From Oscillospiraceae bacterium (GTDB taxonomy: Bacteria; Bacillota; Clostridia; Oscillospirales; Ruminococcaceae): a stretch of DNA of 36,562 bases. Shown here piece after piece: positions 4,010 through 15,528 of this stretch. A program made the translations under genes and the position numbers. The DNA lies in assembly GCA_021200775.1 (NCBI GenBank), contig JAJQGB010000014.1, positions 1 to 36,562 of the forward strand, read 5' to 3'. The notes under the pieces are model-generated. The model was not told the origin of the DNA and made no database searches. It worked only from the letters and a program-made list of their open reading frames with translations. How positions within the stretch are numbered: position 1 is the stretch's first letter; each line of letters starts with the position of its first letter.

Positions 4010-5191
4010 TTACAGAGGTAAATCTTTCTTCTGGAATCTGACTGCGCCGATGGCGTAGCAGACTACAGCTATTACAACCAAAGCTATAAGCTTCGGAACG
4101 AAAGCATAATCAACGGCACCGGAGCCTACTGTTCCGAGGGCTTCGACATCGAAGAGTCCGACTATTGTCAGGTTGTTGAAGGTTCCGAGCATTTCGGCAC
4201 CTATTCCCATGCTGACCATCGTTTCGGAACCGAACATTCCGAGGAGTGAGCAGAGGAAGAACCAGACATTGAGTCCTCCGCCGAGAGCCATTGCGTTCTT
4301 GCTGAGGTTGAATATACAGCTAGCCATGTAGCAGATGCTTGCCATAGCTTCCGCTAAGAGATATATTCCGCCGTAGAGAGCCACATATTTCAGGGCGTCA
4401 ACTTCTCCTGCAATCGCCTGAGTTGCCACAAGCCTTACTATCAGTCCGCAACCGACCATTATAAGCGGCGTGATTATCATGTAAATAAGCTGAGTGATGA
4501 CAACTGCGCTTCTCTTTGTCGGGGTAGACAGGACGTAAGCCATCGAGCCTTTGTCGACCTGGTCTACGAAGAGTTCGTTGCCGGCGAAGATGATGAATAA
4601 GATTATCGGAAGTAAGCACATGATGGTGAAGTACATCTGGTTGAGCATAGCGGATGTGTCCATCTCGGTCATGGTATTGAGCATATCACTGGACATTCCC
4701 ATCATCTCAAACATGTTCGTCATCATTGTGCTGACGTCAAGAGTGTCGCCGGTGAAGACGCCTTCGGTGGCGCCCAAAGCATAGACATACTCGAAGTTTG
4801 TGATATAGACATCAAGCCCTACGTCCGACTCCGAAAGAAGTTCAGCCGATTCCGCAAACTTTTCGACCGACAAATCGAGGTCTTCCGACTGTGCCGACAT
4901 CATCTCAAAAACGGTTTCGTACATGCTGGTGTCGTCCGTCGATGCGAAATCTTCGTAGCTCAAATCGGTTCCCATCATCTCATTATATGCCGCCAGGACA
5001 TACAGATGGCTGTAGAAATCGGTCTGGGCGTCGGTATAATCAGTCGATTCCGTTCCGGCAATCAGGTTTCCGGCGTAGGTGGTGACAATCGTCATCAGGC
5101 ACAGGACAACCGTGCAGGCAATTAAGAGAACTCTGTTTGCACGGAAGCTCTGCTTGAACAGCGGCACGGAAAATACTTTTGTTACTTTCAT
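4010..5191 (-). CDS. ABC-2 type transporter permease
   Basis: An integral membrane protein of 393 residues. There is one N-terminal helix at about 20-42, a long extracytoplasmic acidic and Met-rich loop at about 43-180, and then about five more helices to the C-terminus. This is the ABC-2 layout used by drug and antibiotic exporters. It is translationally coupled to the upstream ATPase by a 4-base overlap. With two different ATPases directly upstream and only one permease, the complex may use a heterodimer of ATPases or swap between them. Start ATG at 5191. The substrate cannot be read from the sequence. The large loop is the most distinctive part and shows no domain I recognise. Confidence 0.85.
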   Translation of the reverse strand: MKVTKVFSVPLFKQSFRANRVLLIACTVVLCLMTIVTTYAGNLIAGTESTDYTDAQTDFYSHLYVLAAYNEMMGTDLSYEDFASTDDTSMYETVFEMMSAQSEDLDLSVEKFAESAELLSESDVGLDVYITNFEYVYALGATEGVFTGDTLDVSTMMTNMFEMMGMSSDMLNTMTEMDTSAMLNQMYFTIMCLLPIILFIIFAGNELFVDQVDKGSMAYVLSTPTKRSAVVITQLIYMIITPLIMVGCGLIVRLVATQAIAGEVDALKYVALYGGIYLLAEAMASICYMASCIFNLSKNAMALGGGLNVWFFLCSLLGMFGSETMVSMGIGAEMLGTFNNLTIVGLFDVEALGTVGSGAVDYAFVPKLIALVVIAVVCYAIGAVRFQKKDLPL

Positions 5192-6084
5192 TCTCTCTTC
5201 TCCTCTTGATAGATATTCATAAAGTACTGCTCCAGATTCTCGTGGTTTTCGTCGACAGAGACTACTTCAAGATTCTGAAGAGCCTTGAAAAGCCTGTCGG
5301 TTTCGCTTGCGAGAATGCTAAGTCTGGCTTCGTTTCCGGATAAGGTCGCTTCCGGGATTCTTTCTGCGAACTTTTTGGCAGAAGGCGGATTTCCGAAAAC
5401 TATCCTATAGTTTCGCTTGGTTCCGTGCCGGAGCTCGGAAAGGCTCAAAACGCTTTCAATCTTGCCGTTACCGATGATGGCGACTCTGTCGCAGACGTCC
5501 TCGATTTCCTCAAAGATGTGGCTCGACATGAAGATTGTTCTGCCCTTTTGCTTTTCCTCACGGACAAGTTCGAGGAAGGTTTCTCTCATCAACGGGTCAA
5601 GACCTGTTGTCGGTTCGTCCATGATGAGGATTTCCTTGTCGCCCATCAGAGCCGCAACGATGGCGGTTTTCTGCTTCATGCCCTTGCTCATTCGCTTCAG
5701 GTTTGCCGAAGGGTCAAGCCCGAGCTTGTCGATAAGATAGTTCATATAAGTGAAGTCTTTGACTCCCAGGAACTCCGCCTGAACCTTGAAGAAATCGGTT
5801 CCTGTCTTTACATCCGGGAAGGCGATTTCGCCGGGGATGTAGCTTACACTCTTCATGACTTCCGGGGCGTGATTCCACGGGTTGAGACCGTTTACGGTAA
5901 CTTCTCCCGAATCGGGCTTTAAAAAGCCCATCATGTGGCGGATGGTAGTCGTCTTGCCGGAGCCGTTGGTTCCTAAGTATCCGAAAACCTCGCCTTTTTT
6001 GATATCGAGGGAGATATCGAAGACACCACGCTTCATACCGTAGTCCTTCGTGAGATTTTGTACGGAAATTACTGATTCGCTCAT
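5188..6084 (-). CDS. ABC transporter ATP-binding protein (DrrA-like), second copy
   Basis: A soluble ATPase of 298 residues that would drive the neighbouring ABC-2 permease from the cytoplasmic side. Walker A GTNGSGKTTT is near residue 40, the signature is a variant (KRMSKGMKQK), Walker B is ILIMDEPTTGLD, and the H-loop SSHIFEE follows. The C-terminal extension of about 80 residues (220-298) is the usual accessory domain of DrrA-type ATPases. It overlaps both neighbours by 4 bases (ATGA junctions), so the three genes are tightly coupled. It clearly resembles the upstream ATPase and probably arose by tandem duplication. Confidence 0.92.
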   Translation of the reverse strand: MSESVISVQNLTKDYGMKRGVFDISLDIKKGEVFGYLGTNGSGKTTTIRHMMGFLKPDSGEVTVNGLNPWNHAPEVMKSVSYIPGEIAFPDVKTGTDFFKVQAEFLGVKDFTYMNYLIDKLGLDPSANLKRMSKGMKQKTAIVAALMGDKEILIMDEPTTGLDPLMRETFLELVREEKQKGRTIFMSSHIFEEIEDVCDRVAIIGNGKIESVLSLSELRHGTKRNYRIVFGNPPSAKKFAERIPEATLSGNEARLSILASETDRLFKALQNLEVVSVDENHENLEQYFMNIYQEEKRE

Positions 6085-6995
6085 CTGCTCACCCCTTCAA
6101 AATGATGCCCGGTGTCGTAGAAGCTCATGAAGTAGTCTTCGAGAGTAAACGGAATCTCGACAAAGTCGGCGACACTGTAATCTCCTAAGCATTGTGTCAG
6201 CTCGCCGACACGGTTTGCTTCAATCTGAACTCTTGCACGGAGCTTGTCGTGGTTCTTTGAAGTGAACCTGAACGGTTTTTCGATGAACCGTAGGTACGAG
6301 CCCTCATCCCTGAATGAAACACGGTAGATTCTGTCGTGGCTTGCTTTCAGCTCATCTGACTTGAATTCCGAAGCTATTTTGCCGTCACGGATTATTGCAA
6401 TCCTGTCGCAGAAAGCGTCGACTTCGTGGAAAATATGGGACGAAAGGAAGATGGTCTTGCCACGAGCTTTTTCCTCCTTGACGAAATCAATGAACGTCTC
6501 CTGCATGACAGGGTCGAGACCGGAAGTCGGTTCGTCCAATATAAGAATATCCGGGTCGTGCATGAAAGCTGTGACAACTGCAAGCTTTCTCTTGACGCCG
6601 AGACTCATCCTTTTTATACTGATGTTCGGGTCGAGGTCGAACTTGTCGAGAAGCATCTTTAAGTAATCGTCGTTTTTGGTGTTGCGCATACCCTCCATCA
6701 TTCTAAGGAAGCCGGTTCCGGAAAGTCCCTGTGGAAGAGTAACTTCACCGGGAAGATAGCCGACGGTGTTTTTAAGCTCGGCTGAGTGCTCCCAGCTGTC
6801 TTTACCTGAAATAGAGGTTTTGCCCGATTGTGGCTTTGAAAAGCCCATTAAATGCCTGATTGTAGTCGTCTTTCCGGCACCGTTAGGTCCCAAAAAGCCG
6901 TAACATTCGCCTTTTTCAACTTGAATAGACACATCAAACACGCCACGACCTTTGCCGTAGTCTTTTGTCAGATGGTCTACAGAAATTACCGGCAT
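6081..6995 (-). CDS. ABC transporter ATP-binding protein (DrrA-like), first copy
   Basis: The first gene of the export operon, 304 residues. It has Walker A GPNGAGKTTT, signature KRMSLGVKRK, Walker B ILILDEPTSGLD and H-loop SSHIFHE. The ATG at 6995 follows AAGGAGGAATTTT, a strong ribosome site. A consensus promoter with a palindromic operator lies 25-75 bases upstream. The N-terminal ATPase core (1-220) resembles the next gene more than unrelated ABC proteins would, while the C-terminal 85 residues differ. That fits two ATPases forming a heterodimer on one permease, although this is inference. Confidence 0.93.
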   Translation of the reverse strand: MPVISVDHLTKDYGKGRGVFDVSIQVEKGECYGFLGPNGAGKTTTIRHLMGFSKPQSGKTSISGKDSWEHSAELKNTVGYLPGEVTLPQGLSGTGFLRMMEGMRNTKNDDYLKMLLDKFDLDPNISIKRMSLGVKRKLAVVTAFMHDPDILILDEPTSGLDPVMQETFIDFVKEEKARGKTIFLSSHIFHEVDAFCDRIAIIRDGKIASEFKSDELKASHDRIYRVSFRDEGSYLRFIEKPFRFTSKNHDKLRARVQIEANRVGELTQCLGDYSVADFVEIPFTLEDYFMSFYDTGHHFEGVSR

Positions 6996-7113: not shown

Positions 7114-8091
7114 TTACGAAAAATACTTGCAAAATTGCTTGTAATTATAATCCTTTTCAGGCTTGCAGAGAACTGCGAAGTCTATCGAATCAAAGAACGC
7201 TTCAGCAGGCTTTCCTGAGTATGAAAAGCCGATAATCGCCTTATAGAACAGTCTTGACACAAGGCTTGCGTCGTTTCCGTAAATTCCACAGCCGAATGCG
7301 CCGAAAATCAGGTGGCGATATTTTTCTGTTGCGGCAACCGTCAACATTCCACGGATTCTTGATTCGAGCATGTCTTCATACTTGCCTTGCGACATTCCTT
7401 CGAGACCCATGCGAATCATAGGTGCGGCACAGGTCATAACTGTTACCGGGAACGGCTCGGAAAGCGTTTCTGATGACGAGTCCTTTATAACTTCGACATT
7501 ATGCGACATCACGATTCCGTTTGAGCCCATATGTGTCTTGAACGAGTTGTTATAGTCGTAATATTCCTTTGCGTTATTGCTTTCGAGCGACAAAAGAAGC
7601 GACGAGCGCCTGCAAAGGTCTTCCTCCTGAGCGCTTGCGCCTTTCCTGGTGTGACCTCCGGGCTCGGTTGCACTTGCAAGATTGAGAACAAGCACCTTCG
7701 GCGAGAAATCCCCGGAGTTTTTCATTTCCTGGTACCGTCTCTTTGCCAGAACAAGTGCGTCCTCGTTTTCACAGCTGAAAATCCGGCTGATGTCACGTTC
7801 TTCGTGAGTTTCTGTGACCGGAGCCGACTTTTCAACGGCTTCGATATCCTCAGGAAGATAGACTTTTGCTTCTCTCATGCTTTCGGAAGAGAATCTGAGA
7901 GCAATCTCCCTGCCGGCTTTTTCGTAACTGCCTTTTTCGAGAATACTGATTGTGTCGTCAAGAATCCGGATGTTTTCGAGTTTTAACTTTTCTCTTTCAG
8001 CGTCACGAGCCTTGATTTCTTCCTCTGTCAAGCCTCTGTTTTCGGCTTCACGCATTCTTTCAGCGAGTTCTTTCATCTTTTCATCAGGCAT
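7114..8091 (-). CDS. PARG-like macrodomain protein (TIGR02452/DUF2263 type), likely ADP-ribosyl hydrolase
   Basis: A 325-residue protein with an N-terminal charged helical part (1-45, many Glu/Lys/Arg), a TIGR02452-type N-terminal region, and a PARG-like macrodomain. The signature is PGGHTRKGASAQEEDL near 144-159. The two Glu of QEE (155-157) match the catalytic pair of poly(ADP-ribose) glycohydrolases, while the usual third glycine of the GGG loop is His. A second hallmark, GAFGCGIYGND, follows in the C-terminal third. The family removes ADP-ribose from proteins or nucleic acids. It starts 1 base after the stop of a sirtuin gene, so writer and eraser appear to be co-translated. The ATG at 8091 has an AAGGAAAGG-type site upstream. 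The in vivo substrate is unknown. Confidence 0.85.
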   Translation of the reverse strand: MPDEKMKELAERMREAENRGLTEEEIKARDAEREKLKLENIRILDDTISILEKGSYEKAGREIALRFSSESMREAKVYLPEDIEAVEKSAPVTETHEERDISRIFSCENEDALVLAKRRYQEMKNSGDFSPKVLVLNLASATEPGGHTRKGASAQEEDLCRRSSLLLSLESNNAKEYYDYNNSFKTHMGSNGIVMSHNVEVIKDSSSETLSEPFPVTVMTCAAPMIRMGLEGMSQGKYEDMLESRIRGMLTVAATEKYRHLIFGAFGCGIYGNDASLVSRLFYKAIIGFSYSGKPAEAFFDSIDFAVLCKPEKDYNYKQFCKYFS

Positions 8092-8092
8092 T

Positions 8093-8797
8093 TCAGGGTT
8101 TCCTTTCCTTCAGTTTCCGGAAAACATCGTCCGACGGCTCACGGATATTCAAATCCGCAACCCTGTCGAAGGCGGTGTGCCCCGGGTTAATCTGCACGAT
8201 TATAGCGTCGCTCCGCCGGTGGTTCCAATAGACACCGCCGTAGTAGCCGTTGGTGCCGATTACTATAATCAGGTCGGCTTTTGAAATCCACTCCTGTGCT
8301 TTCTGGACGCCGTCGTTCCAGAGACCGATGTGGCTGTAGAGCTCCCACGGGAGAATTGTTCCTCCACAGGAATCGCATTTGGGGAGCTCATCCTTGTTCC
8401 ATATCTCATAGCCGTCAAAGTGCTTGCCGCAGTCCTTGCAACGGTTAATCTGGAAGCTACCCTGAATCTCGGCGACGTTCTGCGTGCCGGCTATCGTGTG
8501 CATACAGTCCTCGTTTGTCGTGATAACACCCGTGAGCTTGCCTTCACGCTCCAGGTCGGTAAGTGCATAGTGGCTGAGACTCGGCTTGTAGTGGTGCATC
8601 GCTTTGACATATGATGTAAGAAACGACTCGCTTTCAAAGCTGCCACCCGGGCGGATGGTGCGGGAAAGCTGGGAGTAGGTCACTCCTCCGCCGGAAATCG
8701 AGATTCCTGCACCTGTTATTGCGACTATATGCTGGCTTTTATCGATATACTCTGAGAATTTCTGTATCTTATCGTCTGAGTTTGATTTAGAGAACAT
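8093..8797 (-). CDS. Sir2-family protein with Gln in place of catalytic His (SirTM-like), copy 2
   Basis: A 234-residue sirtuin-fold protein. The NAD-binding motif GAGIS is at 29-33, the usual TQNID is changed to TTNED (93-97), and the catalytic His of the HG motif is Gln112 (EIQGS). Four Cys (120, 123, 141, 144) form a zinc site. Replacement of this His by Gln is, from memory, characteristic of macrodomain-linked class M sirtuins (SirTM), which transfer ADP-ribose rather than deacetylate. A PARG-like macrodomain gene follows 1 base later, which supports that reading. The start overlaps the preceding sirtuin gene by 11 bases. Compared with that paralogue it is more divergent in the Asn-Glu-Asp motif. 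The alternative is an ordinary deacetylase, which is unlikely without the His. Confidence 0.85.
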   Translation of the reverse strand: MFSKSNSDDKIQKFSEYIDKSQHIVAITGAGISISGGGVTYSQLSRTIRPGGSFESESFLTSYVKAMHHYKPSLSHYALTDLEREGKLTGVITTNEDCMHTIAGTQNVAEIQGSFQINRCKDCGKHFDGYEIWNKDELPKCDSCGGTILPWELYSHIGLWNDGVQKAQEWISKADLIIVIGTNGYYGGVYWNHRRSDAIIVQINPGHTAFDRVADLNIREPSDDVFRKLKERKP

Positions 8798-9536
8798 CCT
8801 TGATTTTCTCCCATCCGTTCATTACTTCGTCCAAAACTTCGGCGGCGTCGGCACGGATATTCCAGGTTGCAACGGAATCAAGCGGAGTTTCCGAAGGATT
8901 TATCTGGACGAGTGTTGTGCCCTTGCGCATCTTTCTTAAGTACTCGTCGCTCCGGAAGCCGGTTGTTCCGATGATTATAACCAAATCCGCCTCGGAAATC
9001 ATTTCAGCCGCCTTCTTCATGCTTTCTTTTGAAACCTGCTCTGACAGTTTATTATCCCGGCAGAAGGTTGTCGGCATCAGCGGCGAACCGCACTTTTCGC
9101 AGGTTGGAGTGTGTCCTTCGTTCCATCTTTCGTAGCCAAAATATCTTTCTCCGCAGTTTACGCAGATATTGTCCCCGAAGCTTCCCTGAAACTCGACGAC
9201 GTTTTTCGAGCCGGCTATCGTGTGAAGGCAGTCCATGTTCTGGGTTACTATCCCATAAAGCAGGCAATTCTCTTCAAGGGTTGCAAGCTGTTTGTGAACC
9301 TTGCTCGGTCCTTTCCCAAATGTTGCGTCGAGGAATGAGGTCTTGACTATTCTGTAGAATTCATCCGGGTTGTTTCTCACGAAGGAAGAGGAGAGCACCT
9401 GCCTTGAATTCATCAGCCCGACGCTCTGCTTCAGCCGCCTCATACCATATAAATAGGAGATACCTGCGCCCGTTACTGCGACTGTCCTGCTACTTTTATC
9501 CATGTATTCTCTCAACTGACTTGATTCGTATCTCAT
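8787..9536 (-). CDS. Sir2-family protein with Gln in place of catalytic His (SirTM-like), copy 1
   Basis: A 249-residue sirtuin-fold protein. GAGIS is at 23-27, and there is no GIPDFR-type loop after it. TQNMD (98-102) keeps the catalytic Asn, while the catalytic His position is Gln117 (EFQGS). Zinc-type Cys pairs are at 125/128 and 146/149, and an IIIGTTG ribose-binding motif follows. The combination of Gln and a macrodomain partner two genes on points to ADP-ribosyl transfer. An ATG at 9554 opens the frame, but GGAGATG, the likely ribosome site, lies between it and the ATG at 9536, so the latter is chosen. The downstream sirtuin overlaps its end by 11 bases. The two copies share layout but differ strongly in sequence. 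Confidence 0.87.
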   Translation of the reverse strand: MRYESSQLREYMDKSSRTVAVTGAGISYLYGMRRLKQSVGLMNSRQVLSSSFVRNNPDEFYRIVKTSFLDATFGKGPSKVHKQLATLEENCLLYGIVTQNMDCLHTIAGSKNVVEFQGSFGDNICVNCGERYFGYERWNEGHTPTCEKCGSPLMPTTFCRDNKLSEQVSKESMKKAAEMISEADLVIIIGTTGFRSDEYLRKMRKGTTLVQINPSETPLDSVATWNIRADAAEVLDEVMNGWEKIKDVL

Positions 9537-9573
9537 AAAATCATCTCCATACATTTTAAATGCGTCCTATAAA

Positions 9574-9613
9574 CACCGACCCACCAAATTGTGTTACTCT
9601 TCGGTGGGCGGTG
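9574..9613 (-). terminator. hairpin between nitroreductase and sirtuin genes
   Basis: Arms 9574-9585 and 9603-9613 pair over 11 bp with one bulge. On the minus strand only a weak T-run (GTTTATAGG) follows. It may be a leaky terminator for the nitroreductase genes or a leader structure for the sirtuin-macrodomain genes. Either would let expression of the two halves of the cassette differ. Confidence 0.5.
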
Positions 9614-9651
9614 CTTATCTATATTGTTGCGTGGGGTACTGATGACTGTGG

Positions 9652-10344
9652 TCATTTCCAGGTGAAGTTTTCTTTTCCCGCACCGAGCTCGAAGAAGTAT
9701 TTACTGATTCCGAGGTCGGCTTTTGCGAAGGATGCGTCGGGAACTGTCATCGAGACTTCATTTCCGGAGCCCTTTACTGTGAATTCCTGACGGTTCATTC
9801 CTGTGGGAGCCAGAAGTGCGGCTTCAACTCCTGCCTTGAACCAGTCGGGGGCTTCGCCGTCATAGGAAGAGACTTCGCTTACTGACTTCGACTTGTGCGG
9901 AACGCCCTGCTCCATACCGTAGCCGACGGCTACTACTCCGATAATCTTTGAGCCTTCCGGAGATTGGGAGTTCTTTCTTGCGTTCTTTTTGCTGTACATT
10001 CCGCCAATCCACCATGTGTTGAGACCCAGAGTCTGTGCATACAACATAAGGTCGGCACTGGCATATCCGAGCGTCTCATCGGTGGAAGCCTTGTCGGGAC
10101 CGGCGAGAATCATATAGTTCAGGACGTTCTTCGACATGGTTGCAGCCATGATTCCGGGCATCGCCTCCTTGTTGTCGGTGACAAGCTCGATGTTGAGGGC
10201 ATACTTTGAGTTGTTCTCCTCAATTCTTTCGTTGAGCTTCTCTACAATGTCCGAAGGAAGCTTGTCAGTCTTATACTTGCGGACGGAGTGCCGTTCTCTC
10301 ATTGCCTTTTTCATTGCTTCCTGCGTTGGTTCGTAATTTGCCAT
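9652..10344 (-). CDS. nitroreductase-family flavoprotein (230 aa)
   Basis: An FMN-dependent NAD(P)H oxidoreductase fold. The N-terminal motif RHSVRKY (17-23) is the phosphate-binding signature of nitroreductases. The central part (LGYASADLMLYAQTLGLNTWW) matches the helix before the substrate site, and IIGVVAVGYG follows. The C-terminal part contains GMNRQEF, as in longer members of the family. It could reduce nitroaromatics, quinones or related electrophiles. ATG at 10344 with GGAGG nine bases upstream. It lies 32 bases after a second, shorter nitroreductase in the same orientation. The physiological substrate is unknown. Confidence 0.88.
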   Translation of the reverse strand: MANYEPTQEAMKKAMRERHSVRKYKTDKLPSDIVEKLNERIEENNSKYALNIELVTDNKEAMPGIMAATMSKNVLNYMILAGPDKASTDETLGYASADLMLYAQTLGLNTWWIGGMYSKKNARKNSQSPEGSKIIGVVAVGYGMEQGVPHKSKSVSEVSSYDGEAPDWFKAGVEAALLAPTGMNRQEFTVKGSGNEVSMTVPDASFAKADLGISKYFFELGAGKENFTWK

Positions 10345-10376
10345 GATAGTGCCTCCTTGCTTTTTAACAGTTCAAA

Positions 10377-10907
10377 TCAAATGTAGTTGGTGCTGAGGGA
10401 AACTGTGAGGTCTCTCGGTTCTGCTTCACCACTAAGACTGTAGCCGATTGCGGCGGCGGAAACAGGTCTGAAGCCTTCCGGGATGCCCATCTTTGCACAC
10501 ATCTCTTTATTTCTTGCAAGACCCTGAACAGGTCCCCAGAGATAGATATTTCCCAGTCCAGCATCGGTTGCGGCAATCAACATATTCTCGATGACGCAAG
10601 CGGAGTTGGCATATTCAATTCCCGGCGCCATCTGCTTCTCTGAAGCGGAAACGAAGATAACGACCGGTGCTCCATAGAAGAAGTCTCTTGCCGGCATATT
10701 CATAGCTGCGGCGGTGGACTGATTGATTTCTTCGAGAATCTCACGGCTCTTGCATACTGTCAGGTGAAGAGAATCTCTCTTGCCTCCGCCAACCGGAGCC
10801 TGACAACCTGCCTTGACGATTTCGTCGACAACCTCGTCCGGAACAGCCTTTGTAGGGTCAAAGTCTCTTGTTGACTTTCTCTTTGCGATAGCTTCTGATG
10901 TTTGCAT
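10377..10907 (-). CDS. nitroreductase-family flavoprotein (176 aa)
   Basis: A short nitroreductase with the FMN-binding motif KRKSTRDF (9-16), a conserved AP-GGGKRDSLHLTV region and a C-terminal AAIGYSL strand. The length is typical of the compact single-domain members. The ATG at 10907 is preceded by AAGGAGG. It differs clearly from the adjacent 230-residue enzyme, so the pair is unlikely to be a recent duplication. The position between a Cys-cluster protein and SirTM-like genes suggests a redox-stress role. That fits known SirTM operons, which also carry oxidoreductases (recalled, not checked). Confidence 0.87.
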   Translation of the reverse strand: MQTSEAIAKRKSTRDFDPTKAVPDEVVDEIVKAGCQAPVGGGKRDSLHLTVCKSREILEEINQSTAAAMNMPARDFFYGAPVVIFVSASEKQMAPGIEYANSACVIENMLIAATDAGLGNIYLWGPVQGLARNKEMCAKMGIPEGFRPVSAAAIGYSLSGEAEPRDLTVSLSTNYI

Positions 10908-10932
10908 AAAAATTCCTCCTTAAAAATATATA

Positions 10933-11247
10933 TCAGGTTTCTTCATCCTGGTTGTGTATCCACACCCGGAAGGTTGTCACATATGGACAATCCTCCGGAA
11001 GTGTGGTATTAAACAGTGCCGTGTACAAAGTCAGTTTTCCGCAGTGATTGCACTTCTTAAATCGTTCTTCATACACACGGCACAGGTTCGTCTGCGTGTC
11101 AAGATATTCGCACGGATTGTCATAGTGAATTATAACCTTTCCATCGGAGCCGATAGAGCGGGTGTAACAGCATTTTCCGCAACGGGTGCAGAGTGAGTCC
11201 CAGTCGTTTCGCCACTTGAACCATTCCTTTAAAATGCGGACGCTCAT
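10933..11247 (-). CDS. small Cys-cluster protein (YkgJ-like zinc/iron-binding)
   Basis: A 104-residue soluble protein with CTRCGKCC near 20-27, then further Cys in NPCEYLD, LCRVYE, KKCNHCGK and EDCPY. This spacing is that of the YkgJ/UPF0153 metal-chelating cluster proteins. It could bind Zn or an Fe-S cluster; the function is not known. The frame opens at a TTG (11307), but that codon lies in the operator and an internal GGAGGG precedes the ATG at 11247, so the ATG is chosen. It is the first gene behind the minus-strand promoter at 11325-11352 and probably heads the transcript that runs through the nitroreductases into the sirtuin genes. Confidence 0.8.
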   Translation of the reverse strand: MSVRILKEWFKWRNDWDSLCTRCGKCCYTRSIGSDGKVIIHYDNPCEYLDTQTNLCRVYEERFKKCNHCGKLTLYTALFNTTLPEDCPYVTTFRVWIHNQDEET

Positions 11248-11320: not shown

Positions 11321-11382
11321 ATATATTATACTCAGTCCGGAAGCATTATCAACCCTCAATTTTTCCGGAACTGTCGGACGAT
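11295..11382. repeat. 88-bp regulatory repeat, copy 2 (between tetR and the cassette)
   Basis: The partner of 7011-7098 in the same orientation. It carries the operator palindrome and a bidirectional promoter, while copy 1 serves only the leftward ABC operon. Similarity ends just after CTGTCGGA, before the tetR ribosome site. Confidence 0.85.
11325..11352 (-). promoter_or_regulatory. promoter of the redox/ADP-ribosylation cassette
   Basis: Minus-strand TTGATA (rc of 11347-11352) and TATAAT (rc of 11325-11330) are 16 bases apart, the same spacing as the ABC operon promoter at 7041-7068. The two share flanking sequence. Transcription would enter the Cys-cluster gene. Confidence 0.78.
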
Positions 11383-11401: not shown

Positions 11402-11965
11402 ATGAAGAAACAACCGGAAATCACAGAAAGAACAAGGCAGAGGTTTGTGGACGCCTTCTGGAAGCTGGCTCGGGCGAAGCCTGTTTCAAAGATTGCCGTG
11501 AGCGAGCTGACACGGATTGCCGGCTACAACCGCAGTACATTTTATGAATATTTTTTGGACACCGATGATTTATTGTCCTATGTCGAGGACAAGCTGATAG
11601 AGAAGGTCAAGGGAGTGGCTCAGGAGTCTTTGTCGGATAACAGGTCGCCCATCGATTTCTTCGGAATGGTATTTTCTGCGCTGAACGAGGAAATCTATAT
11701 CCTATTGGGTCCTAACGGCGATTCGAGCTTTCTGCCGAGGGTAAGAGCCGAGCTTATACCTATTGCTTCCCGGTACCTTCCCGTAAAACCGGATTCGGAG
11801 AACTTCGACTATCTCGTTGCCTTCGTCAACTCCGCCATGTTCGGGCTCCTGGAGCGCTGGCATGAAAACAATAAGGACATCAGCCCCGAGGAAATCAGCG
11901 AAATGATGCAGAGACTGGTGTATGGGGGAGTGTCAGGCTTTATCAAGGCTGAGGAAGCCAAATAA
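11402..11965 (+). CDS. TetR/AcrR-family transcriptional regulator
   Basis: A 187-residue regulator. The N-terminal helix-turn-helix covers about 10-58 and ends in the typical GYNRSTFYEYF recognition segment, followed by an all-helical ligand and dimer domain. It reads divergently from the Cys-cluster/nitroreductase/sirtuin cassette, with one palindrome between the two promoters. A related palindrome precedes the ABC export operon. I infer that it represses itself, the cassette and the exporters, and is released by a small ligand such as an exported drug or electrophile. ATG at 11402 with GAGG a few bases upstream. A strong terminator follows. Confidence 0.9.
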   Translation: MKKQPEITERTRQRFVDAFWKLARAKPVSKIAVSELTRIAGYNRSTFYEYFLDTDDLLSYVEDKLIEKVKGVAQESLSDNRSPIDFFGMVFSALNEEIYILLGPNGDSSFLPRVRAELIPIASRYLPVKPDSENFDYLVAFVNSAMFGLLERWHENNKDISPEEISEMMQRLVYGGVSGFIKAEEAK

Positions 11966-12150: not shown

Positions 12151-12573
12151 ATGCCTACCTTTAACCAGTTGGTTCGCAAGGGAAGAGAAGTTTCTGTATA
12201 CAAGTCCACTGCTCCGGCTCTTCAGAAGATTTACAATTCCAAGAAGAAAGTCAGCGTTGATTTGTCCTGCCCTCAGAAAAGAGGCGTTTGCACCGCTGTA
12301 AAGACCCAGACTCCTAAGAAACCTAACTCAGCTATGAGAAAGATTGCAAGAGTTCGTCTTACAAACGGCACAGAAGTCACTGCTTACATCCCCGGAATCG
12401 GACACAACCTTCAGGAGCACAGCGTTGTTCTCATCAGAGGCGGCAGAGTAAAGGACCTCCCTGGTGTACGTTACCACATCATCAGAGGAACTCTCGATAC
12501 TCAGGGCGTTGCCAAGAGAATGCAGGCTAGATCCAAGTACGGTGCAAAGAGACCGAAGGCTACAAAGAAGTAA
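12151..12573 (+). CDS. rpsL: 30S ribosomal protein S12
   Basis: A 140-residue S12, full length for Gram-positive anaerobes. It opens [13 protein letters not shown] and carries the conserved decoding-centre loop [11 protein letters not shown], with the Lys that streptomycin-resistance mutations usually change still present, then [13 protein letters not shown] and the basic C-terminal tail. It sits at the A-site of the small subunit and affects decoding accuracy. ATG at 12151 with AAAGGAGAG upstream. It is the first gene of the str block; rpoB/rpoC, common neighbours elsewhere, are not to its left, where tetR lies instead. Confidence 0.98.
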
Positions 12574-12823
12574 GTCTGACAAAAAAAGCCCACAGCTTTG
12601 GGCAGTTGCTTGATGCAACAAAAGTAAAAGCAAGTAAATCCACCACAGTCAAGTGGAGTTGACATATATAGCGTGGCGCCCGCATGGGCGGTCATGCGAA
12701 AAGAGTTATCTCTATTTGGACTGACGGGGTCACTGCGGGAAGGTTTAAGGAGCGTTCCGACAGCCAATCCCGGGTGAAAACGAGTACCCATGATATCATT
12801 CTATTATGAAGGAGGGAAGCGAA
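12574..12823 (+). other. structured 250-base rpsL-rpsG intercistronic region
   Basis: There is no open frame here. It contains several inverted repeats: GCCCA/TGGGC near 12590-12603, two mutually exclusive hairpins around 12675-12705 (CGCCC-GCAT-GGGCG versus CGCATG-6nt-CATGCG), and a GC-rich stem-rich part up to the rpsG ribosome site. No T-run follows the stems. In E. coli the rpsL-rpsG gap binds S7 for translational feedback. A similar role here is an inference; no known RNA family was recognised. Confidence 0.5.
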
Positions 12824-13294
12824 GTGCCAAGAAGAGGTAATATTGCAAAACGTGATGTTTTGGAAGATCCGGTGTATAATTCTAAGCTCGTCACTCGTCT
12901 CATAAACAACGTTATGGTTGACGGTAAGAAGGGCGTAGCTCAGAAGATTGTGTACGACGCATTCGAAATTGTAGAAACAAAGTCCGGTAAGCCGGCTCTC
13001 GAAGCTTTCGAGCAGGCTATGGAAAACGTAATGCCGAACCTTGAAGTAAAGGCTCGCCGTGTCGGCGGTGCTACTTACCAGGTTCCTATGGAAGTACGTC
13101 CGGCAAGAAGACAGACCCTGGGTCTCAGATGGCTCGTCAAGTATGCACGTGACAGACATGAAAAGACCATGAAGGAAAAGCTCGCTGGCGAAATCATGGA
13201 CGCCATGAACGGAACCGGCTCGGCTGTCAAGAAGCGTGAGGACACTCACAAGATGGCAGAAGCAAACAAGGCATTTGCTCATTTCCGTTGGTAA
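12824..13294 (+). CDS. rpsG: 30S ribosomal protein S7
   Basis: Encodes 156 residues, the usual S7 length, if the GTG at 12824 is used ([12 protein letters not shown]). An ATG 18 bases upstream would place the GGAGGGA ribosome site inside the coding region, so GTG is preferred. The protein has the S7 features [28 protein letters not shown] and a C-terminal AHFRW. S7 nucleates assembly of the 30S head by binding the 16S 3' domain. It follows rpsL after the structured gap and precedes fusA by 149 bases, where further short hairpins but no clear terminator are seen. Confidence 0.97.
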
Positions 13295-13443
13295 TTTCCG
13301 GCGGTGCATTTGCACAGGTGTTTGTAAAGCCACCATTAAAAAGTATTTTCTCAAAAGAAGCTATTTCTTTGAGGCTGTCTGTATTTGGGTTAAGCGGACA
13401 GCTTGGGTAAAAAAGCCCTCACAAAGGGGCATGGAGGATTTGT
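13295..13443 (+). other. rpsG-fusA spacer with short hairpins
   Basis: A near-perfect stem around CTCAAAAGAA / TTTCTTTGAG (about 13351-13374) and a GCTGTC / GACAGC stem just after it precede the GGAGG ribosome site of fusA. No promoter or T-run is evident. It is probably a processing or stability element within the operon. Confidence 0.4.
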
Positions 13444-15528
13444 ATGGCAAGAGATGTATCTTTGTCGATGACCCGAAACATCGGAATTATGGCTCATATC
13501 GATGCCGGCAAGACGACCACTACCGAGCGTATTCTCTACTACACGGGAATCAACCACAAGCTCGGCGAGGTTCACGACGGTGCGGCAACGATGGACTGGA
13601 TGGAGCAGGAGCAGGAAAGAGGTATCACTATCACCTCCGCCGCTACCACTGCATACTGGAAGGGTCATAGAATCAACATCATCGACACCCCCGGTCACGT
13701 TGACTTTACCGTTGAGGTTGAGAGATCTTTGAGAGTTCTCGACGGTGCGGTAACAGTTCTTTGTGCCAAGGGAGGCGTTGAGCCGCAGACCGAGACTGTT
13801 TGGAGACAGGCGGACAAGTATAATGTTCCCCGTATGATTTACGTCAACAAGATGGACATCATGGGTGCGAACTTCTACCACGTCATCGACATGATTCACC
13901 AGCGTCTCAAGGCAAACGCTGTTCCAATACAGCTTCCTATCGGAAGCGAAACCTTCTTCAAGGGAATTATAGATTTGCTTGAAATGAAGGCCTATGTTTA
14001 CTATAACGAACTCGGAACCGACATCAGGGTTGAAGAAATCCCTGAGAACATGGTCGAAGAGGCTGAAAAGTATCGTTCTCAACTCGTCGAGTCGGTAGCC
14101 GAGCTTAACGACGACCTTATGGAGAAGTATCTCGACGGCGAAGAGCTCACCATTGAAGAGCTCAAAGCCGGAATAAGAGCGGCAACAATCGCAAACAAGA
14201 TGGTTCCCGTTGTCTGCGGAACATCCTATAAGAACAAGGGCGTTCAGAAGCTCCTTGACGCGATTGTAGACTATATGCCCGCTCCTACCGATATCGAAGA
14301 CATCAAGGGCGTAAATCCCGAAACCGGCGAGGAGGAGACAAGACCCTCCGACGACAACGCTCCGTTTGCGGCACTTGCATTCAAGATTGCTACAGACCCG
14401 TTCGTCGGAAAGCTCTGCTTCTTCAGAGTTTACTCGGGAACACTTAACGCAGGCGAAACCGTTTTGAACTGCACAAAGGACACTAACGAAAGAATGGGAC
14501 GTGTTCTTCAGATGCATTCAAATCACCGTAAGGACATCGAGACCTGCTATGCAGGCGATATCTACGCAGTAGTCGGCGTAAAGAACACAACAACCGGTGA
14601 CACGCTTTGCGACGCAAAGCACCCGATTATTCTTGAATCTATGGAGTTCCCCGACCCGGTTATCCAGCTCGCTATCGAGCCGAAGACAAAAGCCGGTCAG
14701 GAAAAGATGGCAATCGCTCTCAACAAGCTTGCCGAAGAGGACCCGACATTCAAGACCTGGACGGACGAAGAAACCGGACAGACCATCATCGCCGGAATGG
14801 GCGAGCTTCACCTCGAAATCATCGTCGACAGAATGTTGCGTGAATTCAAGGTTGAGGCTAACGTAGGTGCACCTCAGGTTGCCTACAAGGAGACTGTCAG
14901 AAAGCTCTCAGACGTCGAGTGCAAGTACGCTCGTCAGTCTGGTGGTAAGGGACAGTATGGTCACGTCAAAATCAGACTTTCTCCGAATGAATCGGGCAAG
15001 GGCTACGAATTCACCAACTCTATTGTCGGTGGTGCTATTCCTAAGGAATTCATCCCGGCTGTAGACAAGGGTATTCAGGGCGCTATGAAGTCCGGCGTTC
15101 TCGCAGGTTATCCCGTTGTTGACGTCAAGGTTGAGCTTTATGACGGTTCTTACCACGAGGTTGACTCTTCCGAAACCGCATTCATGATTGCCGGTTCAAT
15201 GGCATTCAAGGACGCTATGAAGAAGGCAGACCCGGTAATTCTCGAACCTATCATGAAGGTTGCCTGCATTGTTCCGGAAGAGTACATGGGAACCGCTATC
15301 GGCGACCTCAACTCACGCCGTGGACAGATTTTAGGACAGGAAATCAATACCGGTGTCGCCCAGATAGACGCACTTGTACCGCTTTCCGAGATGTTCGGTT
15401 ATTCAAACGACTTGCGTTCAAAGACACAGGGCAGAGGACAGTACACGATGGAGCCGCACAGCTACACCGACGTTCCGAAGTCAGTTGCTGAGACTATCAT
15501 GTCGAGCCGCAAGCACGTGAACGACTAA
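13444..15528 (+). CDS. fusA: translation elongation factor G
   Basis: A 694-residue EF-G, full length. GTPase motifs are G1 [13 protein letters not shown] (about 17-29), G2 around [10 protein letters not shown]3 DTPGHVDFT and G4 NKMD. Domain IV shows the YGHVKIR region and a C-terminal domain V with [12 protein letters not shown]. It moves tRNA and mRNA through the ribosome and helps recycle ribosomes. ATG at 13444 with ATGGAGG 11 bases upstream. It lies between rpsG and tuf, as in most bacterial str operons. Confidence 0.98.

Follow-up and report, generated by a model that had tools for sequence, protein, structure and literature searches.

What do two sirtuins do when both have Gln in place of the catalytic His and are encoded next to a PARG-type macrodomain protein and two nitroreductases? 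The question is raised by a minus-strand run of six genes (11247-7114) in contig 14 of a 2.06 Mb clostridial genome (G000), a stretch of 36,562 nucleotides of this contig being the window analyzed here. Open reading frames (ORFs) and family models show that the genes encode, in the order of reading, a Cys-cluster protein, two nitroreductases, the sirtuins SirA and SirB and a TIGR02452/PARG-type protein, which agrees with the composition given in an earlier note on this DNA. The end of the SirA gene overlaps the SirB gene by 11 bases, and one base lies between the SirB and PARG-type genes. Judged from sequence, we propose with a probability of about 0.6 that the cluster encodes a module for reversible ADP-ribosylation with a link to flavin/redox chemistry; it resembles the known sirtuin-macrodomain switch but appears to be a distinct form of it.

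Active sites of the Gln sirtuins and their PARG-type partner

The Gln residues that the earlier note had placed at the catalytic His were found there in PDB alignments, in which Gln of SirA aligns with H116 of Sir2Tm, as do the residues of the H116Y and H116A entries, and Gln of SirB aligns with the HG of an Archaeoglobus Sir2. Among 182 sirtuins of the clade that includes SirA and SirB (the Q clade, from which proteins of <200 aa, identical copies and the short loci fetched earlier for these genes were excluded), the catalytic column contains 181 Gln, one Glu and no His. All 62 SirA, 111 of the 112 SirB (the other has Glu) and all eight SirC proteins contain Gln; SirC is a third group defined by a score band, which also took in the phage protein L152. 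The DFR and GTS motifs are each found in none of the 182 Q-clade sirtuins vs. 51 of the 52 canonical sirtuins, which were labelled by His at the catalytic column, so that their His count is definitional while their DFR and GTS counts are not. In addition, as judged by eye from the alignment, SirA and SirB both have a rewritten sequence in the stretch by which deacylases hold the acyl-peptide.

Other features are retained. The zinc Cys4 pattern is present in 181 of the 182 Q-clade sirtuins, and across 83 aligned proteins the zinc Cys and T28, G29, G31, S33, N95, D97, G181 and N204 of SirB, which form the core for nicotinamide adenine dinucleotide (NAD), are invariant or nearly so. The motif TTNxD is shared by all SirB (112/112), SirC (8/8) and class M sirtuins (SirTM; 23/23), and 61 of the 62 SirA contain T[QA]NxD. 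The AlphaFold model of SirB has a predicted local distance difference test score (pLDDT) of 86.8, and its nearest structures are Sir2Tm and Sir2Af (Foldseek match to Sir2Tm: E 5.4e-20, template modeling (TM) score 0.74). Because His, DFR and GTS are lost and the acyl-peptide stretch is rewritten while the NAD core and zinc Cys are kept, the Gln sirtuins are unlikely to be deacylases and look selected for NAD binding. A His elsewhere that supports deacetylation, named in the earlier note as evidence that would speak against its reading, was excluded only in part: at the sequence level, the His residues invariant in both SirA and SirB (76 and 100 of SirB) align with those of canonical sirtuins, whereas SirB also has three conserved His of its own, which are weighed below.

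Although Gln had been taken as the mark of SirTM enzymes, assignment of SirA and SirB to class M SirTM was rejected. For comparison, 23 distinct SirTMs were collected from zinc macrodomain (Zn-Macro) loci. In a 47-row tree with outgroups, SirTM and the Q clade formed separate clades with support of 100/100 and 99/98, respectively, and the Q clade was also recovered (90/90) in a 74-row tree without outgroups. Profile comparison places the Q clade far nearer to canonical sirtuins (score 305, E 2.7e-46) than to SirTM (78, E 8.9e-11); the SirTM profile is itself remote from the canonical one (81, E 2.1e-11). The Q clade also lacks the SirTM pyrophosphate motif, and a true SirTM/Zn-Macro pair is found elsewhere in the same genome. 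This pair, a Zn-Macro gene followed by a class M SirTM gene, lies on contig 8 of G000 (L183:3307-4906), and no GcvH-L or LplA2 gene was recognized when 9 kb of translations around it were read by eye, without a family search of the neighbors. The Q clade and SirTM were sisters with support of 70/81. A topology that unites the Q clade with clostridial canonical sirtuins was only 0.76 log units worse (p-AU, from the approximately unbiased test, 0.42), and a single clade of SirB/SirC and SirTM was not rejected (p-AU 0.09). These trees are compatible with one as well as with two origins of Gln.

That the partner is a PARG-type protein rather than a zinc macrodomain was confirmed by its scores with TIGR02452 (154.7 bits, cut-off 50) and PARG_cat_microb (PF10021; 95.9 bits, cut-off 23.5). 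Its model (pLDDT 81) best matches the PARG of T. curvata (TM score 0.83 by target length, 27% identity) and has two long N-terminal helices ahead of the region covered by the family models. The GAF stretch is shared with microbial PARG, and the catalytic QEE of the family motif GGGx6-8QEE is kept in all 44 cassette PARGs compared, in every one of which the third Gly of GGG is replaced by Gln, His or Arg. The copy at locus L036 has Ala at this position, and GGG is found in six of the seven non-cassette clostridial PARG copies fetched. The variant is defined by motif and alignment, without a PARG tree, and the model is least certain at residues 139-151, exactly the altered loop.

Recurrence and inner structure of the cassette

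Q-clade sirtuins were identified in 3 of 148 genomes of the family (G000, G143, and G027) and in 4 of 391 genomes of the class (G000, G399, G423, and G461), with a fragment in G503; genomes were called by a score gap, and among the lower hits only those at fetched loci were inspected for His. By these counts the Q-clade sirtuins are rare and patchy. Scanning 84,980 species genomes with a SirB profile gave 185 confirmed places, the best 80 of which were kept (79 loci in 67 assemblies by title); as they were ranked by likeness to the window SirB, the set is biased toward loci close to the query. All 79 loci are on contigs of metagenome-assembled genomes, which by NCBI ranks belong to Eubacteriales without family (36), Lachnospiraceae (26), Oscillospiraceae (13) and others (4).

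Together with the loci from the genome searches, a phage contig and the window, these make 87 distinct loci (after removal of L117 and L104, which duplicate L034 and L069), of which 85 contain SirB, 63 SirA, 65 PARG and 56 all three. The association across Clostridia that the earlier note had called for is therefore conserved. SirA lies directly upstream of SirB in 60 of the 78 loci with enough sequence (900 bases asked), and a SirB is followed immediately by PARG in 57 of 75 (1200 bases asked). It should be noted that the ORF caller was simple and may have missed some neighbors, and that PARG fragments were counted as PARG. At E 1e-15, 7 of 148 class genomes contain TIGR02452, and all six copies found in the seven cassette genomes sit inside cassettes. 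No PARG was found beside canonical sirtuins in 54 control loci, which are short (median 3.7 kb). A chance string of genes was rejected by the recurrence of SirA, SirB and PARG across loci. A plasmid collection returned 28 records, all with <60% identity, the best being 36% over 75% of the query. In the open-access literature searched, the Gln-sirtuin/PARG cluster was not described, although subscription papers could describe parts of it, and TIGR02452 had an unrelated mention only.

Two SirB genes are present in 31 of the 87 loci, and in 27 of these a TTNVD type precedes a TTNED type; the window carries only the latter. Pairwise distances of SirA and PARG correlate with a rho of 0.90 over 51 loci, compared to about 0.5 for SirB with either. 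Taken by SirB type (37 and 36 loci), the correlations are 0.70/0.82 for SirA-SirB, 0.75/0.82 for SirB-PARG and 0.83/0.91 for SirA-PARG, and the module is on this basis mostly inherited together. Partial cassettes also exist: SirA-PARG without SirB is found in G027 (locus L036), and a TM1586 reductase with a SirB-type gene but no SirA or PARG beside it in G461 and on a phage contig, and in degenerate form in G503. These few cases suggest that the cassette may be composed of a SirA-PARG half and a reductase-SirB half. On the phage contig, which is from IMG/VR (L152:6900-8699), genes for MarR, a TM1586 nitroreductase and the SirB-type protein are flanked by genes for a tail tape-measure protein and a tail protein and thereby resemble an accessory insert. 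G027 has, in addition to its intact SirA-PARG locus, a cassette with broken TM1586 and PARG frames (contig 128, L035:5672-8624). About 8 kb from a Q-sirtuin cassette lies the gene for another PF02146 sirtuin, which is divergent and has Tyr in the catalytic column (L130:19761-20510), and an outgroup search returned a plasmid Sir2 of Miltoncostaea oceani (L195:454-1209), whose GAG loop is rewritten and which has Tyr (EVYG) at the position of HG.

Over 88 cassette loci, the Zn-Macro profile found no full-length Zn-Macro, weaker Macro-domain matches being limited to L071, L110, L121 and L133. In G503, the gene for a truncated SirB is preceded by a TM1586 reductase gene and followed by one for a MacroD-type Macro protein (PF01661, 165.9 bits), and this single broken locus hints that the MacroD-type protein may be an alternative eraser in place of PARG. 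Upstream of the cassettes at L110:3875-6997, L121:3279-4480 and L133:4612-7790 are genes, partly fragments, for a Macro-domain protein, an ADP-ribosylglycohydrolase-cluster protein (PF03747, 119.5 bits in L110; a fragment in L121) and a further protein.

Neighbors were counted in the 59 loci that have 2.5 kb upstream. Nitroreductases of either type are near 36 loci (PF00881 near 25, TM1586 near 21), any flavoenzyme of the kinds searched near 41 and the Cys-cluster gene near 22. In the controls, a nitroreductase, the only kind counted there, was near 1 of 54 canonical loci and a flavoenzyme near 3 of 12 SirTM loci, flank lengths differing between the sets. A divergent TetR or Rrf2 gene is upstream of 31 of the 59 loci, with Rrf2 near 17 and TetR near 19. 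Of the single TetR-type promoter proposed previously for the window, the divergent TetR gene is real, and relatives have TetR or Rrf2, while the promoter itself is a pattern match only; pattern matching found nine promoter-like sites across the region, compared to 4.7 expected. In a subset of loci, L102:11786-13300 among them, PARG is followed by an AMP-binding ligase gene, whose cluster was seen in 19 loci, often with GNAT and esterase genes after it. These genes, which are absent from the window, were rejected as part of the core.

The features of the window are listed in Table 1. For the Cys-cluster protein, both the NCBIfam YcgN models (at most 63.1 bits, cut-off 150) and Pfam CxxCxxCC (20.2 bits, cut-off 23) remained below threshold, and homologues indicate that SirA may start at 9536. 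The ABC transporter genes probably form a separate unit, because they are preceded by a promoter-like site of their own with 12 of 12 consensus letters (7068-7041, pattern match only); they were rejected as part of the cassette core, being kept in near relatives but not widely. Genes for ribosomal proteins S12 and S7 and elongation factor G, recognized by eye from translations, lie on the plus strand at 12151-15528, and the cassette therefore adjoins a housekeeping cluster.

Table 1. Positions of the cassette genes and adjoining features in the window.
Feature	Position	Strand	Score or remark
TetR-family regulator, divergent (TetR_C_8, PF14278)	11402..11965	+	36.9 bits, cut-off 26.1
Promoter-like site before the operon, TTGATA-16-TATAAT	11325..11352	-	11/12 consensus letters, pattern match only
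Cys-cluster protein, YcgN/CxxCxxCC type	10933..11247	-	ATG at 11247; ORF opens at TTG 11307
Nitroreductase-family protein, PF00881, 176 aa	10377..10907	-	68.2 bits, cut-off 23.5
TM1586-type nitroreductase (TM1586_NiRdase, PF14512)	9652..10344	-	207.5 bits, cut-off 27
SirA, Gln sirtuin: TQNxD, zinc Cys4, no DFR loop	8787..9554	-	PF02146, 85.5 bits, cut-off 24
SirB, Gln sirtuin of TTNED subtype: TTNxD, zinc Cys4, no DFR loop	8093..8797	-	PF02146, 69.9 bits, cut-off 24
TIGR02452/microbial PARG-type macrodomain, helical N-terminal extension, GGH...QEE loop	7114..8091	-	
ABC transporter genes (two ATPases, one permease), downstream	4010..6995	-	Outside the operon; synteny L073-L080 and L086

A candidate ADP-ribosylation module and its alternatives

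In the proposed module, one or both Gln sirtuins would use NAD to attach ADP-ribose to a target, without deacylation. SirB would be the likelier writer, perhaps together with SirA, because its TTNxD and Gln match those of SirTM. In favor of the module, the available text of a SirTM study reports that mutation of Asn118, Gln137 or Arg192 strongly cuts transfer and that changing Gln to His abolishes it (PMC4518038). The PARG-type macrodomain protein would strip the mark, the TetR or Rrf2 regulator would switch the operon, which may be under redox or xenobiotic control, and the nitroreductases or flavodoxin, or a partner protein of these, would be the likeliest targets or outputs.

Several observations weigh against this proposal. 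Its transferase activity, eraser role, redox link and target are all inferred. The GVGx[NT]TP pyrophosphate motif is found in none of the 182 Q-clade sirtuins vs. 18 of the 23 SirTMs, and sequence and profile alignments show no invariant Arg in the region of SirTM Arg192, the residue that contacts the Gln. The altered NAD loops of the sirtuins and the changed GGG loop of the PARG-type protein could each mean that catalysis is lost, and SirB contains conserved His at 126 (54/57 rows), 156 (55/57) and 207 (47/57), none of which is found in SirA. The arrangement is not universal either: 18 of 78 loci have no SirA directly upstream of SirB, 18 of 75 no PARG right after SirB and 18 of 59 no flavoenzyme of the kinds searched, while searches for PARG and Zn-Macro-like erasers found none to accompany the SirB-type genes of G461 and the phage contig L152. 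Simple vertical descent would likewise produce correlated distances.

It is improbable that the Gln sirtuins instead act as enzymes that hydrolyze NAD (NADases) or as NAD sensors, for example in a switch for stress or phage defense, with the PARG-type protein clearing or reading ADP-ribose. Such a role is consistent with the position of the SirB-type gene with MarR and TM1586 between phage tail genes, with the weak matches of PADLOC SIR2 models to the phage SirB (best 38.1 bits) and with the proposal, in the available text of PMC12700824, that antiphage sirtuins work mainly as NADases. PADLOC, however, matched none of the six window proteins at E 0.01, the proteins are short and single-domain with no sensor or effector domain, and TetR/Rrf2 control together with reductases would suit metabolism better. 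About equally improbable is that the Gln sirtuins are dead proteins that bind NAD or ADP-ribose, for example as a SirA-SirB dimer, and that the PARG-type protein is the only enzyme or a reader. The loss of both DFR and GTS in 182/182, the pairing and duplication of the paralogues and the replacement of the third Gly of the PARG GGG in 44/44 would fit this explanation. Yet Asn and Asp of the NAD core and Gln are almost invariant, beyond what a dead site would need, QEE is retained in 44/44, and 22 of the 23 SirTMs also lack DFR although SpySirTM is catalytically active according to the available text of PMC4518038.

The ABC transporters that adjoin TetR and the two nitroreductases in the window and near relatives would also suit a detoxification operon, in which a drug or xenobiotic, sensed by TetR and exported by the ABC proteins, is ADP-ribosylated by the sirtuins or reduced by the reductases, with the PARG-type protein recycling ADP-ribose. 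Given that a separate consensus promoter-like site precedes the ABC genes, that these lie outside the wider conserved core, and that 17 of the 59 loci have Rrf2 and 19 TetR nearby, we consider such a role very unlikely. Least probable is that the Gln sirtuins deacylate by an unusual mechanism or, together with the PARG-type protein, turn over O-acyl-ADP-ribose. Their sequence, profile and fold are closest to those of canonical deacylases, SirB has conserved His of its own, and the macrodomain hydrolases MacroD1 and TARG1 act on O-acetyl-ADP-ribose (PMC7050489, available text); against these stand the loss of the catalytic His in 182/182 and the acyl-peptide stretch, which appears rewritten by eye in SirA and SirB. 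Reversible ADP-ribosylation is thus the reading that we prefer. A more specific version, which we regard as doubtful, is that the Q clade is a second class of ADP-ribosylating sirtuins, which would have evolved from ordinary clostridial-type deacylases and reached Gln independently of class M, and would combine tandem writers (SirA with SirB1, SirB2 or SirC), different erasers (usually a PARG variant, in one relative a MacroD type) and direct control of flavin reductases.

Comparison with known sirtuin systems

To our knowledge, the substrates of bacterial PARG-type proteins are mostly unknown, and the cassette could supply such a protein with a defined writer. A second, differently built Gln-sirtuin system would also offer a comparative test of the role of Gln in sirtuins, and its position near flavin enzymes a test of whether these are a shared target.

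The extended SirTM operon, as described in the available parts of two papers, encodes GcvH-L, LplA2, OYE and LLM with SirTM and the Zn-macrodomain (Rack 2015; Ariza 2024). According to the available text of PMC11490716, no SirTM target other than GcvH-L is known and what the flavin enzymes do in SirTM operons is elusive; the OYE and LLM of that operon may be a parallel to the module proposed here. No GcvH or LplA was found among the family matches of the window operon, as the earlier note had stated. In the seven cassette genomes, GCV_H gave weak matches in four (19.8-24.1 bits, cut-off 22.2, two above it), all on other contigs; LplA was not searched genome-wide.

The cassette resembles the SirTM/Zn-macrodomain system in Gln for His, the loss of DFR, an adjacent protein of macrodomain fold and flavin oxidoreductases nearby, and TTNxD is a further likeness in SirB and SirC only. 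In contrast to the SirTM operon, its partner is PARG-type rather than a zinc macrodomain, its sirtuins are two or three in tandem and form a separate clade without GVGx[NT]TP, nitroreductase or flavodoxin take the place of OYE and LLM, no GcvH-L lies beside it, and its genome also contains a SirTM/Zn-Macro pair. With canonical Sir2 deacylases (Sir2Tm, Sir2Af, and clostridial), the Gln sirtuins share the fold, zinc Cys4 and the closest profile and structure, but they are without catalytic His, DFR and GTS, and their acyl-peptide loop is, by eye, rewritten. Similarly, the PARG-type protein has the fold, QEE catalytic pair and GAF stretch of microbial PARG (TIGR02452/PF10021; T. curvata and D. 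radiodurans), from which it differs by GG[QHR] for GGG, the helical N-terminal extension and the sirtuin operon partners. Paired noncanonical sirtuins that may cooperate are also known from FAM118A/B and antiphage SIR2_2, although those belong to the SIR2_2 subfamily (PMC12700824, available text).

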